Shown here piece after piece: positions 20,649 through 27,802 of a stretch of 64,000 nt of DNA; the first letter of the stretch is position 1; each line of letters begins with the position of its first letter. This DNA comes from Xanthobacter autotrophicus. Lineage in GTDB: Bacteria > Pseudomonadota > Alphaproteobacteria > Rhizobiales > Xanthobacteraceae. The notes under the pieces are model-generated. The model had not been told where the DNA came from, searched no databases, and saw nothing but the letters and a program-made list of their open reading frames with translations. The position numbers were made by a program, and so were the translations under genes. The DNA is taken from NCBI RefSeq assembly GCF_030015065.1, contig NZ_JAIVFN010000002.1, positions 1 to 64,000 on the forward strand, in the 5' to 3' direction.

Positions 20649-20963
20649 ATGCAGAGCCGCTCGCGCCTTCAGTCCATCCTCGCCACGCTCGCCCTCCACC
20701 TCGGAGCGGCGGCGCTCATCGGCTATTTCGCCTACCATGCCTACAATGGCGATCACGGGCTCGTCGCCAAGCGCAACTACGAGCAGGAGATGAAGGTGCT
20801 GGAGGCCGAGCTCGCGACCCTCAAGGCGCAGCGCCGTGCCATGGAGAACAAGGTGTCCCTGCTCGCGCCCAACCAGCTGGATCCGGACATGCTGGACGAG
20901 GAGGCGCGTCGCCAGCTCAACTTCATAAACGGCAAGGATCTGGTGCTGCTTCGCAGCAAATGA
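20649..20963 (+). CDS. ftsB: Septum formation initiator, FtsB/DivIC family
   Basis: A bitopic cell-division protein of 104 residues: a short cytoplasmic tail, one membrane segment (LATLALHLGAAALIGYFAYH, about residues 11-30) and a periplasmic coiled coil (KRNYEQEMKVLEAELATLKA and following). It forms the FtsQLB subcomplex that activates septal peptidoglycan synthesis. In Hyphomicrobiales ftsB is often directly upstream of pdhA, as here. Its stop codon is the first three bases of a palindrome in the pdh control region. Confidence 0.88.
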   Translation: MQSRSRLQSILATLALHLGAAALIGYFAYHAYNGDHGLVAKRNYEQEMKVLEAELATLKAQRRAMENKVSLLAPNQLDPDMLDEEARRQLNFINGKDLVLLRSK

Positions 20964-21007
20964 ACCATAAAATGGTTCACAGCACTAATGAACCATTTTA
21001 TGGTTCA
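20961..21007. promoter_or_regulatory. Twin 19-bp palindromic operators between ftsB and pdhA
   Basis: TGAACCATAAAATGGTTCA at 20961-20979 and TGAACCATTTTATGGTTCA at 20989-21007 are each palindromes (arms TGAACCAT/ATGGTTCA around a 3-base centre), and the second is the exact reverse complement of the first. Centres are 28 bp apart. The arrangement is that of a dimeric repressor binding two sites cooperatively over the pdhA promoter. The arms contain a TGGT/ACCA core seen in GntR-family sites, but I cannot assign a regulator. Confidence 0.75.
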
Positions 21008-21026
21008 TTTTAGTGAAATCAAGCAT

Positions 21027-21042
21027 TTGCAACGTGTTGCAA
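21027..21042. promoter_or_regulatory. TTGCAA-N4-TTGCAA motif in the pdhA upstream region
   Basis: TTGCAACGTGTTGCAA contains two copies of the self-complementary TTGCAA hexamer separated by CGTG, 20 bp beyond the twin palindromes and about 80 bp before pdhA. TTGCAA-type sites are known for acetate or acyl-CoA responsive regulators of the RamB/ScfR kind; assignment here is inference. Confidence 0.4.
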
Positions 21043-21124
21043 TGCAGCACGAAGAATTTCGCGCTTTGAGGCCGTCGGGAGCTGGGATAGGAAGGCGCAG
21101 TTCCAGCGCTTCCTGAGGATGCCG

Positions 21125-22135
21125 ATGGCCGCCAAGAAAACTTCCGCCCGAGCCGCCGATGCCGCGGCCCCGGCACCCTTCACCAAAGACCAGGATCTTC
21201 TCGCCTACCGCGAGATGCTGCTCATCCGCCGCTTCGAGGAGAAGGCCGGGCAGATGTACGGCATGGGCCTCATCGGCGGCTTCTGCCATCTCTACATCGG
21301 CCAGGAGGCCGTGGTGGTGGGCATGCAGATGGCCATGAAGCCGGGTGACCAGGTCATCACCGGTTATCGCGACCACGGCCACATGCTGTCCACGGGCATG
21401 GCCGCCAGCGGCGTCATGGCCGAGCTCACCGGCCGCCGCGGCGGCCTGTCCAAGGGCAAGGGCGGCTCGATGCACATGTTCAGCATCGAGAAGCAGTTCT
21501 TCGGCGGCCACGGCATCGTCGGCGCCCAGGTCTCGCTCGGCACCGGCCTCGCCTTCGCCGATCGCTACCGGAACAACGGCAACGTCTCGGTCACCTATTT
21601 CGGCGACGGCGCGGCCAACCAGGGCCAGGTCTACGAGAGCTTCAACATGGCCGAGCTGTGGAAGCTGCCGGTCGTGTACGTGATCGAGAACAACAAGTAC
21701 GCCATGGGCACCTCGGTGTCCCGCGCCTCGGCCCAGCAGGACTTCTCCAAGCGCGGCACCTCCTTCAACATCCCTGGCGAGCAGGTGGATGGCATGGACG
21801 TGCAGGCGGTGAAGGCCGCCGGCGAGCGGGCGCTCGCCTTCGCCCGCGAGGGCAATGGCCCCTACATCCTGGAAATGCAGACCTACCGCTATCGCGGCCA
21901 CTCCATGTCGGACCCGGCGAAATACCGGTCCAAGGAGGAGGTCCAGAAGATGCGGACCGAGCACGATCCCATCGAGCAGGTCCGTACCCGTCTCCTGGAA
22001 GCCCACGGGGCCACCGAGGACGAGCTGAAGAAGATCGACGCCGAGGTCCGCGAGGTCGTGAACGAGGCGGCGGATTTCGCCACCAACGATCCCGAGCCCG
22101 ACGTGTCGGAGCTGTACACGGATATCCTGCGCTGA
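21125..22135 (+). CDS. pdhA: Pyruvate dehydrogenase E1 component, alpha subunit
   Basis: Thiamine-diphosphate enzyme subunit that decarboxylates pyruvate within the PDH complex, acting as an alpha2-beta2 E1 with PdhB. The protein of about 336 residues shows the E1-alpha fold: EKAGQMYGMGLIGGFCHLY, the YRDHGH loop, and the ThDP motif opening GDGAANQGQVYESFN and closing VIENN. RYRGHSMSDPAKYRS is the region of the mitochondrial phosphorylation loop. ATG 21125 is chosen because GAGG at 21115-21118 is 6 nt away; ATG 21119 is an in-frame alternative. First gene of the PDH cluster, behind the twin-operator region. Confidence 0.95.
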   Translation: MAAKKTSARAADAAAPAPFTKDQDLLAYREMLLIRRFEEKAGQMYGMGLIGGFCHLYIGQEAVVVGMQMAMKPGDQVITGYRDHGHMLSTGMAASGVMAELTGRRGGLSKGKGGSMHMFSIEKQFFGGHGIVGAQVSLGTGLAFADRYRNNGNVSVTYFGDGAANQGQVYESFNMAELWKLPVVYVIENNKYAMGTSVSRASAQQDFSKRGTSFNIPGEQVDGMDVQAVKAAGERALAFAREGNGPYILEMQTYRYRGHSMSDPAKYRSKEEVQKMRTEHDPIEQVRTRLLEAHGATEDELKKIDAEVREVVNEAADFATNDPEPDVSELYTDILR

Positions 22136-22504: not shown

Positions 22505-23875
22505 ATGGCCATCGAAGTCCTCATGCCGGCCCTGTCTCCCACCATGGAGAAGGGCAATCTCACCAAGTGGCTCAAGAAGGAAGGCGACACCGTCAAGTCC
22601 GGTGACGTGCTTGCCGAGATCGAGACCGACAAGGCCACCATGGAGGTGGAGTCGATCGACGAAGGCATCCTCGGCCGCATCCTCGTACCCGAGGGCGCCC
22701 AGGACGTGGCGGTGAACACCCCCATCGCCACCATCCTTGCCGACGGCGAGGATGCCAGCGCTGCCCCGGCGCCCGCCCCCAAGGCCGCCGAGAGCGCCCC
22801 CGCCCCCGCCGCTGCGCCGGCCCCAGCGGCGCCGGCCGTGATCGCCCCGCAGGCGGCGGCCCAGCCCGATCCGGAGGTGCCGGCCGGCACCGAATTCGTC
22901 ACCCAGACCGTGCGCGAGGCCCTGCGCGACGCCATGGCCGAGGAGATGCGCCGCGACGGCGACGTCTTCGTCATGGGCGAGGAAGTGGCCGAATACCAGG
23001 GCGCCTACAAGATCACTCAAGGCCTGCTCCAGGAGTTCGGCGACCGCCGCGTCATCGACACCCCCATCACCGAGCACGGCTTCGCCGGCGTCGGCGTGGG
23101 TGCGGCCATGGCGGGGCTGAAGCCCATCGTGGAGTTCATGACCTTCAACTTCGCCATGCAGGCCATCGACCACATCATCAACTCGGCGGCGAAGACGCTC
23201 TACATGTCCGGCGGACAGGTGCAGTGCTCCATCGTGTTCCGCGGCCCCAACGGCGCCGCCGCCCGCGTCGCCGCCCAGCACAGCCAGGACTACACCTCCT
23301 GGTATTCCAACGTGCCCGGCCTCAAGGTGATCGCGCCCTATTCGGCGGCCGATGCCAAGGGCCTGCTGAAGGCCGCCATCCGCGATCCGAACCCGGTCAT
23401 CTTCCTTGAGAACGAGATTCTCTACGGCCACTCCTTCGAGGTGCCGAAGCTCGATGACTACGTGCTGCCCATCGGCAAGGCGCGCATCGCCCGTCCCGGC
23501 AAGGACGTGACCCTCGTGTCCTTCTCCATCGGCATGACCTATGCGCTGAAGGCGGCGGACGAACTGGCCAAGCAGGGCATTGAGGCGGAGGTCATCGACC
23601 TGCGCACCATCCGCCCCATGGACGTGGACACCATCATCGCCTCGGTGAAGAAGACCGGCCGCTGCGTGAGCGTGGAGGAGGGCTGGCCGCAGTCCGGCGT
23701 CGGCGCCGAGATCGTCGCCCAGCTCATGGACAAGGCCTTCGACTGGCTCGACGCCCCGGTGCTGCGCGTCACCGGCAAGGACGTGCCCATGCCGTATGCC
23801 GCCAACCTCGAGAAGCTCGCTTTGCCTTCGGTGGCGGACGTGATCGAGGCCGTGCACGCCGTGACCTATCGCTGA
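22505..23875 (+). CDS. pdhB: Pyruvate dehydrogenase E1 component, beta subunit, with N-terminal lipoyl domain
   Basis: 456 residues. Residues 1-78 form a lipoyl domain with the modified Lys43 in [12 protein letters not shown]; a flexible Ala/Pro linker (about 82-125) leads into the E1-beta transketolase-like domain (about 133-456) with [37 protein letters not shown], the [17 protein letters not shown] stretch and [14 protein letters not shown]1-beta subunits fused to a lipoyl domain are known in alphaproteobacteria. Together with PdhA it makes acetyl groups that are passed to lipoyl domains of E2. The lipoyl DNA is nearly identical to that of pdhC. Confidence 0.95.
22523..22666 (+). repeat. 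Lipoyl-domain direct repeat, copy 1 (in pdhB)
   Basis: These 144 bp match 23906-24049 in pdhC with 7 mismatches by eye, nearly all silent. The copies are in direct orientation about 1.38 kb apart. Confidence 0.9.
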
Positions 23876-23887
23876 GGAGAGAGACGA

Positions 23888-25207
23888 ATGCCCATCGAGA
23901 TCCTGATGCCGGCCCTCTCTCCCACCATGGAGAAGGGCAACCTCGCCAAGTGGCTCAAGAAGGAAGGTGACACCGTCAAGTCCGGTGACGTGCTTGCCGA
24001 GATCGAGACCGACAAGGCCACCATGGAAGTCGAGTCCATCGACGAAGGCGTCCTCGCCAAGATCCTGGTGCCGGAAGGCTCCCAGGACGTGCCGGTGAAC
24101 CAGCTCATCGCCGTGCTGGCCGGCGAGGGCGAGGATGTCGCGGCCGCTGCCGCCGGTGCCGGAGGGGGCAAGCCGGCTGCCGCTCCTGCTGCCGCTGCCG
24201 CCCCCGCCGCCGCGGCTCCGGTGCCTGCCGCCGCTCCCGCCGCCAACGGGCAGGGCGGTCGCGTGTTCGCCTCGCCGCTCGCCCGCCGGATCGCCAAGGA
24301 CAAGGGCATCGACCTTGCCGCGCTCGCCGGCTCCGGCCCGCACGGCCGCATCGTCGCCCGCGACCTGGAAGGCGCCAAGCCCGGTGCCAGGCCGGCCGCC
24401 GCTCCCGCGCCGGCCGCTCCCGCGTCCGCCGCTGCGCCTGCCCCCAAGGCGGCGGTCGCCAGCGCGCCCGGCGCCGAGCAGGTCAAGGCCATGTTCGAGG
24501 CCGGCAGCTACGAGGAAGTGCAGCTCGACGGCATGCGCAAGACCATCGCGCGCCGCCTGGTCGAGAGCGAGCAGGTGACCCCCACCTTCTTCCTCACCGT
24601 GGACTGCGACCTCGACGACCTCATGGCCCTGCGCGAGCAGGTCAACGCCAATGCGGGCAAGGACAAGGACGGCAAGCCGACCTACCGCGTCTCGGTAAAC
24701 GACTTCATCATCAAGGCCATGGCGCTGGCGCTCCAGAAGGTGCCCGCCGCCAACGCGGTGTGGGCGGAAGACCGCATCCTGCGCATGAAGCACTCCGACG
24801 TGGGCGTCGCGGTGGCCATCGACGGCGGCCTCTATGCGCCCATCGTGAAGAAGGCCGAGCAGAAGACCCTCTCCACCATCTCCAACGAGATGCGCGACCT
24901 CGCCGGCCGCGCCCGCACCAAGAAGCTGAAGCCGGAGGAATATTCCGGTGGCTCCACCTCGGTGTCGAACCTCGGCATGATGGGGATGCGCAACTTCACC
25001 GCCATCATCAACGCGCCGCAATCCTCCATCCTCGCGGTGGGCACCTCGGAGCAGCGGGCCGTGGTGCGCAATGGCGAGATCAAGGCGGTGATGCAGATGA
25101 CCGTGACCCTCACCTGCGACCACAGGGTGATGGACGGCGCGCTCGGTGCCGAGCTGCTCAGCGCGTTCAAGGGCTTCATCGAGAAGCCCATGTCCATGCT
25201 GGTGTGA
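23888..25207 (+). CDS. pdhC: Dihydrolipoamide acetyltransferase (E2 of pyruvate dehydrogenase)
   Basis: 439 residues with one N-terminal lipoyl domain (1-78, Lys43 in [12 protein letters not shown]), an Ala/Pro linker, a peripheral-subunit-binding domain (about 127-165, [20 protein letters not shown]), a second Ala/Pro linker and the trimeric catalytic domain (about 215-439). The acetyltransferase active site is [16 protein letters not shown]. It transfers the acetyl group from lipoamide to CoA and forms the structural core of PDH. It follows pdhB by 12 bp with a GAGGAGAGAGACGA ribosome-binding site. Its lipoyl segment is almost identical in DNA to that of pdhB. Confidence 0.95.
23906..24049 (+). 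repeat. Lipoyl-domain direct repeat, copy 2 (in pdhC)
   Basis: Partner of 22523-22666; the two differ at 7 of 144 positions by eye count, suggesting recent duplication or continuing gene conversion. Confidence 0.9.
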
Positions 25208-25752: not shown

Positions 25753-26394
25753 ATGAAGCTGTATCTCGCCGGCCCCGAAGTGTTCCTTGACGATGCGCGC
25801 GAGATCGGCCGGCGCAAGGTGGCGCTGTGCGCCCGCTTCGGCTTCACCGGCCTCTACCCGCTCGACGGCGATCCGCTGCTGGATGCGGCGGCCGGCGCCG
25901 CGAGCCGCGCCATCTTCGCCGCCAATCTTGCGCTGATGCGCTCGGCCGACGCCCTCGTCGCCAATCTCACGCCGTTCCGCGGTATTAGCGCCGATCCCGG
26001 CACCGCGTTCGAGGTGGGCTTTGCCTTCGCGCTGGGCAAGCCGGTGGCGGCCTATTCCAACCTTCCGGGCGAGCTGAAGCACCGCGCCCGTTCCGTGATC
26101 GGCCCCGCCGGCGGCGAGGGGCAGCCCGCTTCCCTGCTGGCGGATGGCCTGCACGTGGAGGACTTCGGCCATTTCGACAACCTCATGCTGGCCGAGGCGC
26201 TTGCCGCGTCCCGCCTGCCGGTGATCCAGGCGCCGGCACCGGCCGCCGATCCCTTTCGCGACCTGATGCTGTTCGAGCAGGTGCTCGCCCTGCTCGCCGA
26301 GGCGCGGTCCGCAGGCCGCCTCGGCACCCCCGATTTTCCCTCCCATCCAGAACCCGCCGCAGACGCGCGCGGCGAGGAGACGTTCCATGGCTGA
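25753..26394 (+). CDS. Nucleoside 2-deoxyribosyltransferase-like protein
   Basis: 213 residues beginning MKLYLAGPEVFL, the classic N-terminus of the nucleoside 2-deoxyribosyltransferase fold. A later DALVANLTPFRG strand and ADPGTAFEVGFAFALGKPV carry the nucleophilic Glu in the TAFEVGFA motif. The fold cleaves or exchanges N-glycosidic bonds of deoxynucleosides, and relatives hydrolyse dNMPs (DNPH1/Rcl) or modified nucleotides. ATG 25753 fits the fold, but ATG 25726 with a nearby GGAG is an alternative adding 9 residues. The 3' end overlaps lpdA by 8 nt, so translation of the two is probably coupled. Why it sits inside the PDH cluster is unknown. Confidence 0.78.
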   Translation: MKLYLAGPEVFLDDAREIGRRKVALCARFGFTGLYPLDGDPLLDAAAGAASRAIFAANLALMRSADALVANLTPFRGISADPGTAFEVGFAFALGKPVAAYSNLPGELKHRARSVIGPAGGEGQPASLLADGLHVEDFGHFDNLMLAEALAASRLPVIQAPAPAADPFRDLMLFEQVLALLAEARSAGRLGTPDFPSHPEPAADARGEETFHG

Positions 26395-27802
26395 CAGTTA
26401 CGACATCATCGTCATCGGTGGCGGGCCGGGCGGCTACGTGGCCGCCATCCGGGCGGCGCAGCTCGGCTTCAAGACCGCGGTGGTGGAGAAGAGCCATCTC
26501 GGCGGCATCTGCCTGAACTGGGGCTGCATCCCCACCAAGGCCCTGCTGCGCTCGGCCGAGATCTACCACTATATGGAGCACGCCAAGGACTACGGCCTCT
26601 CCGCCGAGAAGATCGGCTTCGACGCGGCGGCCGTGGTGAAGCGCTCGCGCGGTGTGTCGGCCCAGCTCGCCACCGGCGTCGGCTTCCTGCTGAACAAGAA
26701 CAAGGTGGACGTGATCTGGGGCAAGGCGACCTTCATCGCCCCCGGCAAGCTGAAGGTGGAAGCCGCCCAGAACCCGCCCAAGGGCGCCAAGGGCGGCGGC
26801 GACTACACCGCCAAGCACATCATCGTCGCCACCGGCGCCCGCCCGCGCGCGCTGCCCGGCCTTGAGCCCGACAAGAAGCTGATCTGGACCTATTTCGACG
26901 CCATGGTGCCGGAAAAGATGCCCAAGAGCCTGCTGGTGATGGGCTCGGGCGCCATCGGCATCGAGTTCGCCTCCTTCTACCGCACCATGGGCGCCGAGGT
27001 GACCGTGGTGGAGGTGCTGCCGCAGATCCTGCCCGTCGAGGACGAGGAGATCGCCGCCGTCGCCCGCAAGCGCTTCGAGAAGCAGGGCATGAAGATCATG
27101 TCCGGGGCGAAGGTGACCGGCGTCACCAAGCATGCCGACAGCATCACCGCCCATGTGGAGGATGCCAAGGGCGTCAAGCACGACATTACCGTGGACCGCA
27201 TGATCTCGGCCGTGGGCGTGGTGGGCAACGTGGAGGGCCTCGGCCTCGAGGGGCTGGGCGTGAAGATCGAGCGCGGCATCGTCGTGACCGATGGCTATGG
27301 CCGCACCAACGTGCCCGGCGTCTATGCCATCGGCGACATTGCCGGCCCGCCCATGCTGGCTCACAAGGCGGAGCATGAGGGCGTGATCTGCGTGGAGACC
27401 ATCAAGGGCCTCCACACCCACCCCATGGACAAGAACAAGATCCCCGGCTGCACCTATTGCACGCCGCAGATCGCCTCCGTCGGCCTCACCGAGAAGAAGG
27501 CCAAGGAAGCCGGCCGCGAGATCAAGGTGGGCCGCTTCCCCTTCATTGGCAACGGCAAGGCCATCGCGCTCGGCGAGCCGGACGGGCTGGTGAAGACCAT
27601 CTTCGACGCCAAGACCGGCGAACTGCTGGGCGCCCACATGGTGGGCGCGGAGGTGACCGAACTGATCCAGGGCTTCGTCGTGGCCATGAATCTGGAGACC
27701 ACCGAGGAGGACCTGATTCACGCGGTATTCCCGCACCCGACCCTGTCGGAGATGATGCACGAGAGCGTCATGGCCGCCTACGGTCGCGCCATCCACGTTT
27801 GA
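26387..27802 (+). CDS. lpdA: Dihydrolipoamide dehydrogenase (E3)
   Basis: Flavoprotein that reoxidises dihydrolipoamide and reduces NAD. 471 residues with the FAD motif VIGGGPGGYVAAIRAAQLG, the redox disulfide in GGICLNWGCIPTKALL, an NAD-binding GSGAIGIEFASFYRTMGAEV, the second FAD motif YAIGDIAGPPMLAHKAEHEG, and the dimer-interface active-site His in HAVFPHPTLSEMMHE. Given its position it probably serves PDH; a separate E3 for 2-oxoglutarate dehydrogenase is likely elsewhere. A GC-rich hairpin follows the gene. Confidence 0.95.
   Translation: MADSYDIIVIGGGPGGYVAAIRAAQLGFKTAVVEKSHLGGICLNWGCIPTKALLRSAEIYHYMEHAKDYGLSAEKIGFDAAAVVKRSRGVSAQLATGVGFLLNKNKVDVIWGKATFIAPGKLKVEAAQNPPKGAKGGGDYTAKHIIVATGARPRALPGLEPDKKLIWTYFDAMVPEKMPKSLLVMGSGAIGIEFASFYRTMGAEVTVVEVLPQILPVEDEEIAAVARKRFEKQGMKIMSGAKVTGVTKHADSITAHVEDAKGVKHDITVDRMISAVGVVGNVEGLGLEGLGVKIERGIVVTDGYGRTNVPGVYAIGDIAGPPMLAHKAEHEGVICVETIKGLHTHPMDKNKIPGCTYCTPQIASVGLTEKKAKEAGREIKVGRFPFIGNGKAIALGEPDGLVKTIFDAKTGELLGAHMVGAEVTELIQGFVVAMNLETTEEDLIHAVFPHPTLSEMMHESVMAAYGRAIHV

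Follow-up and report, generated by a model that had tools for sequence, protein, structure and literature searches.

Pyruvate dehydrogenase (Pdh) is the gate through which sugars and C4 acids reach acetyl-CoA. The literature found names PhaR (AniA) as an input to the pdh genes. In Bradyrhizobium diazoefficiens, PhaR shifts the pdhA promoter in vitro at 110 nM, the expression of pdhAB is down in a phaR mutant, and the consensus TGCRNYGCASMA is given for its sites (PMC6201568); in Sinorhizobium meliloti, PhaR strongly increases the levels of the Pdh proteins (PMC12542648). Pdh of S. meliloti has also been reported to be pyruvate-induced (PMC4960864, citing Cabanes 2000). At the level of DNA sites, boxes of the GntR/FadR family read TKGT...ACMA, the usual distance between GT and AC being 3 nt (PMC4494728), and IclR sites read TGRAACA-N1-2-TGTTYCA or GKTYCRYW3-4RYGRAMC, with the centres of tandem sites mostly 18-22 bp apart (PMC8222616). 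Within a literature search of mostly open-access papers, we recognised none that describes the motif presented below or a dedicated alphaproteobacterial regulator of pdh, and an earlier description is possible. Here, a pair of palindromes located upstream of pdhA of Xanthobacter autotrophicus was analysed; they very probably constitute a doubled operator through which a dedicated protein, most likely binding as a symmetric dimer, would control the pdh operon.

Organization of the ftsB-pdhA region

The window, i.e. the whole stretch of DNA that was analysed (64 kb), contains a pdh gene cluster preceded by ftsB (Table 1). A preliminary description of this region had reported two 19-bp palindromes between ftsB and pdhA that are exact reverse complements of each other, with centres 28 bp apart, and this was confirmed (centres at 20970 and 20998). 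Each palindrome has perfect 8-bp arms around 3 nt, the pair forms a perfect 22-nt inverted repeat (20958-20979 and 20989-21010), and palindrome 1 opens with the TGA stop codon of ftsB (20961-20963). The palindromes are mutually reverse-complementary because each is a good copy of the same symmetric site. With up to three mismatches, the palindrome pattern occurs at 2 places in the window (0.08 expected from dinucleotide shuffles) and at 7 places in the whole genome, of which these two carry 0 mismatches and the five others 3. The span originally assigned to the element (20961-21042) does hold both palindromes, but its end also takes in a separate small palindrome, TTGCAACGTGTTGCAA, lying beside a PhaR-type box; this palindrome may also resemble TTTGCAA-type sites of ScfR/RamB regulators.

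Table 1. Features of the ftsB-pdh region (window coordinates).
Feature	Position	Strand	Basis
ftsB (DivIC family)	20649..20963	+	ORF list; Pfam DivIC over 20649-20960
Palindrome 1, TGAACCATAAAATGGTTCA	20961..20979	.	Sequence; half-sites kept in 14/14 genus genomes
Palindrome 2, TGAACCATTTTATGGTTCA	20989..21007	.	Sequence; half-sites kept across the genus
Array of four half-sites in alternating direction, every 14 bp, TGAAC-N9-GTTCA-N9-TGAAC-N9-GTTCA	20961..21007	.	
Small palindrome TTGCAACGTGTTGCAA	21027..21042	.	Largely kept in the genus; overlaps the PhaR box
PhaR-type box TGCAATGCAGCA	21038..21049	+	Perfect match to the consensus TGCRNYGCASMA
Predicted pdhA promoter, CTTTGA-N17-ATAGGA	21064..21092	+	Layout conserved in the clade
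pdhA, pyruvate dehydrogenase E1 alpha (target gene)	21119..22135	+	ORF and Pfam
pdhB, E1 beta with lipoyl domain	22505..23875	+	ORF and Pfam
pdhC, dihydrolipoamide acetyltransferase E2	23888..25207	+	ORF and Pfam
lpd, dihydrolipoyl dehydrogenase E3; at most a candidate member of the same transcript	26387..27802	+	ORF and Pfam

Conservation within the genus and the family

The consensus proposed earlier for searching related genomes, TGAACCATnnnATGGTTCA, did not hold: it was found in its own genome only among the 150 searched and in none of the 149 others and, read literally, this is the lack of conservation that had been named in advance as speaking against the operator. The literal consensus is missing in relatives because, in their ftsB-pdhA gaps, the inner bases change while the half-sites stay; the perfect inner arms are peculiar to this genome and what relatives share are the half-sites. 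Thus, the complete four-half-site array is present in 14/14 Xanthobacter genomes and also in sister genera. Within the 14 genus genomes each palindrome departs from the pattern at no more than one of the 12 scored positions, and the majority base is held in 98.6% of cases in the half-site columns versus 57.9% in the remainder of the 47-bp array. A search of 198 family genomes for the array (with up to three mismatches) returned 31 places in 30 genomes, and 28 of these lie at pdhA (ten of the placements being judged by coordinates) and span six genera, including Azorhizobium and Ancylobacter. The three arrays located away from pdhA each carry 3 mismatches.

The true conserved unit is TKAACY-N7-RGTTMA. 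Its 12 scored positions were used for scoring, the best score within the 350 bp before pdhA was taken, and a score of at least 11 was counted as positive. Lineages elsewhere have one such palindrome instead of the array. At a distance of 28-29 bp, some of those outside the Xanthobacter clade have a second, weaker site, and in 27% of 48 loci outside that clade an additional weak one (score of at least 9) was found at offset +15. The counts of weak second sites, as well as those of PhaR boxes given below, include distinct upstream regions only; some named loci duplicate other genomes (L083/L010, L084/L023 and L086/L016).

Distribution across the order and the class

The wider comparison covered 87 genomes of the family and the order (91 minus G024, G090, G115 and G121, with no complete orthologous PdhA match). 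Their best scores upstream of pdhA fall mostly at 11-12 or at 7-9, with two genomes at 10, and 32 are positive, against 0.22 expected from dinucleotide shuffles. The conservation at pdhA that had been anticipated across Xanthobacteraceae was found in part of the family (19/54 genomes, representing 6 of the 41 genera sampled) and also in other orders, but the motif was not found at pdhA in 35 of the 41 genera. For the other families of the order, 13/33 were positive (0.15 expected from dinucleotide shuffles) and in 20/33 the motif was not found at pdhA. Among the genomes sampled from the remaining alphaproteobacterial orders, 39/88 scored at least 11 (0.7 and 0.8 expected from base and dinucleotide shuffles, respectively); by family the figure is 29/61. 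This sample consisted of 89 upstream regions (88 from outside the order) of 157 PdhA-bearing genomes, namely the best 30 and most of the next-ranked ones (G516 was skipped); it includes one genome below the cut that was already known to be positive (G371), without which the values are 38/87 genomes and 28/60 families. As controls, 20 column-shuffled palindromes reached the threshold in 0-3 of the 87 and 0-2 of the 88 genomes, and the reversed pattern in 4/87 and 0/88. A blind strict search of 210 genomes of the class gave 27 places (23 new loci), ten of which belong to other orders and lie in the ftsB-pdhA gap.

The motif precedes pdhA in 9/9 Mesorhizobium loci, in Ochrobactrum, in loci of Bosea, Chelatococcus and Kaistia, and in S. 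meliloti Ak57, Shinella and Azospirillum argentinense. It was not found in the pdhA loci examined of Bradyrhizobium, Rhodopseudomonas, Nitrobacter, Afipia and Pseudolabrys, at the pdhA locus of Paracoccus ferrooxidans, or at the plasmid-borne pdhA copies examined (Devosia, Paracoccus, Sphingobium, Phenylobacterium, Microvirga and S. meliloti ABS7). On the Devosia plasmid, a MarR-family gene (L398, 5350-5784) replaces ftsB directly 5' of the motif-less pdhA copy. The S. meliloti record CP090106.1 (3.72 Mb) is labelled pSymB and carries eno-ftsB-pdhABC-lpd-lipA; its content and length look chromosomal.

On a quick, unrooted PdhA tree (138 rows), the presence or absence of the motif needs 11 changes versus 45.5 after shuffling of the labels, a difference to which near-copies contribute. 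We infer that the motif of the ftsB-pdhA gap is ancient in Alphaproteobacteria, a deep origin with repeated loss being the simple reading.

DNA site, RNA structure or mobile repeat

The site is symmetric, holds a fixed place before a gene, is kept while its flanks diverge and occurs far beyond chance, as is generally the case for operators. A palindrome may also act at the RNA level, in this case as a hairpin that terminates or protects the ftsB mRNA or as a structure in the pdhA leader. On the window strand, the predicted fold is much stronger than in shuffled sequences (z -6.4), palindrome 1 starts within the ftsB stop codon (which the S. meliloti site overlaps as well), and among 137 distinct sites pairing exceeds that expected under independence, slightly at positions 6/14 (79 vs 66.8) and 7/13 (56 vs 39.9) and markedly at 2/18 (115 vs 65.9). 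The last of these co-variations mainly contrasts TGAAC and TTAAC lineages and is consistent with lineage-specific half-sites, although a stem would give the same. Against an RNA element, 38 of the 137 distinct sites are unable to pair at positions 6/14 even by G-U, mixed sites exist (e.g. TTAAC...GTTCA), and the unit is also found before the malic enzyme gene of Azospirillum, away from ftsB. Moreover, a G+C-rich stem followed by a T run, as in intrinsic terminators, was not seen at the palindromes, and an Rfam scan yielded no family near its gathering score. The non-pairing arms and mixed sites favour two half-sites read by a symmetric protein, and an RNA-level role is considered improbable.

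The palindromes are AT-rich within a GC-rich genome, which might suggest a mobile or dispersed repeat. This origin is regarded as practically negligible: scattered copies, which the preliminary description had named as a refuting outcome, were not found, the genome having no exact copy beyond the pair in the ftsB-pdhA gap, relatives hold the unit at the same position with diverged inner bases, and the 301-bp region gave no plasmid match. A dispersed palindromic element of the REP or MITE kind was dismissed, since both the copy number and the orthologous position contradict it. The earlier suggestion of a duplicated operator dedicated to pdhA is well borne out by the half-sites being kept while their surroundings diverge, and such an operator, rather than a scattered repeat, appears to be the better description of the pair.

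Target specificity

The exact form TTAACY-N7-RGTTAA was searched for in 35 motif-bearing genomes, a set chosen for a pdhA score of at least 11, the figures from which bear on specificity only. It occurs at 33 places in 29 genomes, and 29 of these are at pdhA, one per genome (3 of the 29 placed by coordinates), leaving 4 sites outside pdhA versus 23 places for the reversed control (10 in one genome). The 3.72-Mb record of S. meliloti Ak57 and the 4.61 Mb of Shinella contain a single exact site each, at pdhA. The strict form TKAACYG-N5-CRGTTMA gave 32 places in 160 genomes of the order, of which 14 are at pdhA and 18 elsewhere, against approximately 44 for the reversed control. Thirteen strict places away from pdhA were inspected; 10 lie within called ORFs and 3 between them (L171, L172 and L185). 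A search for dispersed copies found 39 places in 13/14 genomes, 24 of them at pdhA by coordinates.

These numbers bear on another explanation, according to which the site belongs to a known broad regulator and pdhA is merely its best-conserved target. Half-sites of a similar general type are known in several families, weak sites would slip past exact searches, and PhaR, itself a broad regulator, acts at pdh. Nevertheless, exact sites outside pdhA are no commoner than those of the reversed control in either genome set, and the palindrome differs from the PhaR consensus and follows neither the GntR/FadR nor the IclR consensus. A broad regulator is therefore considered unlikely, and a dedicated one is preferred.

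A few sites lie elsewhere. In two genera of one family (f2) the strict motif is located between surE (named by eye) and the next gene (L171 and L172), where it possibly serves another gene; one of these genomes (G090) has no PdhA match. In the genome studied here, the exact form TGAACY-N7-RGTTCA is also present inside a ptsP-like ORF (named by eye; G000:C17, L191), with a similar case in L282, and this is probably a coding coincidence.

A second target was found in Azospirillum. The 1.9-Mb replicon of A. argentinense carries two sites, one at pdhA and the other just 5' of a gene for NADP-dependent malic enzyme (named from an annotated homologue). Malic enzyme produces pyruvate, and pyruvate dehydrogenase consumes it. 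Of 7 Azospirillum records, 6 retain the malic enzyme site (two at 12/12 and four at 11), A. thermophilum being the exception; the site was also missing in the Sinorhizobium, Shinella and Skermanella records examined (one, one and two, respectively). In Azospirillum, it is preceded by a TATAA-like box and followed, after 15-17 nt, by the start codon, a likely position for a repressor.

PhaR box and predicted promoter

Matches to the PhaR consensus number 3 in the window (0.87 expected), and one match per window is unremarkable. Among palindrome-bearing upstream regions, a perfect PhaR box is present in 28/73 (0.3 expected from base shuffles), and among those without the palindrome in 7/86 (0.2 expected from base shuffles). 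The phaR gene (TIGR01848 above cut-off) was detected in this genome, in 14/14 genomes of the genus and in 54 of 61 genomes searched. PhaR is thus likely a second input at pdhA. The view of a dedicated dimeric regulator taken in the preliminary description agrees with the operator-like array but overlooked this box; that interpretation is partly supported, being right in kind and too narrow in form.

The layout CTTTGA-N17-ATAGGA is preserved in 18/20 clade loci, versus 0.035 expected from base shuffles. If it is a promoter, the predicted start lies near 21099, the two palindromes of the array have their centres near -101 and -129, and the PhaR box is placed just upstream of the predicted -35 element. 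A sigma-70 scan gave two hits that overlap the array, TTCACA-N17-TATGGT on the plus strand and TTGATT-N16-TAAAAT on the minus strand (0.1 expected). Their hexamers vary in congeners and they were set aside in favour of CTTTGA-N17-ATAGGA; if real, they would alter the geometry of operator and promoter.

Candidate regulators and a proposed mechanism

The regulator was sought among the ORFs of 20 motif-bearing neighbourhoods (13-20 kb), which formed 53 groups occurring in at least 3 loci; these were judged by eye and by codon bias, and 10 representatives were run through Pfam. The only linked regulator was a LysR-type group, in 3/20 neighbourhoods and at differing places. No MarR cluster was recognised among the 20 neighbourhoods, and no regulator gene bearing the motif itself was seen. 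A reader of the MarR type, suggested earlier, is neither favoured nor disfavoured. The sites of NtrC, LexA, CtrA, FNR/CRP, TyrR, AdcR and SmtB were also considered and set aside.

If the palindromes are an operator, in Xanthobacter two dimers could sit side by side on the four alternating half-sites, and in most other lineages a single site would be occupied. The signal sensed may be pyruvate or a neighbouring metabolite, which is the most economical choice because Pdh of S. meliloti is reported to be induced by pyruvate. At pdhA the protein might activate, or repress by looping, given that the array centres lie approximately 100 and 130 bp upstream of the predicted start, and at the Azospirillum malic enzyme gene it would block, since the site there falls between the TATAA-like box and the start codon. 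A second signal, related to the storage polymer, could enter through PhaR, whose box lies immediately 5' of the predicted -35 element. Taken together, we tentatively entertain, as a possibility short of an even chance, a factor of early alphaproteobacterial origin with about one site per genome that would open pdh when pyruvate is plentiful and, in Azospirillum, shut malic enzyme, acting as a thermostat of the pyruvate node. Such a regulator, if real, would be very narrowly targeted and yet kept across the whole class.

Comparison with known systems

The window carries a perfect PhaR box before pdhA, a gene whose promoter PhaR shifts in B. diazoefficiens. The box is a separate site, with another sequence than the TGAAC array, which the Bradyrhizobium loci examined do not have. 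The gammaproteobacterial pdh operator is bound by PdhR, a member of the FadR subfamily of GntR regulators. Here, the AAC...GTT halves lie 9 nt apart, the published family consensus is not followed by TKAACY-N7-RGTTMA, and no linked GntR gene was seen, so that an operator of the GntR/FadR type (PdhR, LldR or FadR), including the GntR-type regulator suggested earlier, is less likely. With the multi-box operators of IclR proteins the array has in common the alternating boxes, the tandem palindromes and the TGRAAC-like half-sites (PMC8222616), and its arrangement is somewhat like that of IclR three-box sites. The spacing, however, differs (N7 and 28 bp here), which makes an IclR-type operator less likely as well.

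The pyruvate-inducible pdh promoter of S. meliloti offers another comparison. In strain Ak57 there is a single palindrome, TTAACTGAAAATAGGTTAA, which shares bases with the ftsB stop codon and has its end 121 bp from pdhA; S. meliloti thus has one palindrome where Xanthobacter has two. A tie between this palindrome and the induction by pyruvate is a conjecture by analogy. A 19-bp site present once in a 3.7-Mb S. meliloti record provides a direct bait for the regulator in a laboratory model. The kind of element, an operator of a putative dedicated regulator, is known; what sets this one apart is its spread over a bacterial class with a nearly single target, together with its clean absence from lineages such as the Bradyrhizobium loci examined.
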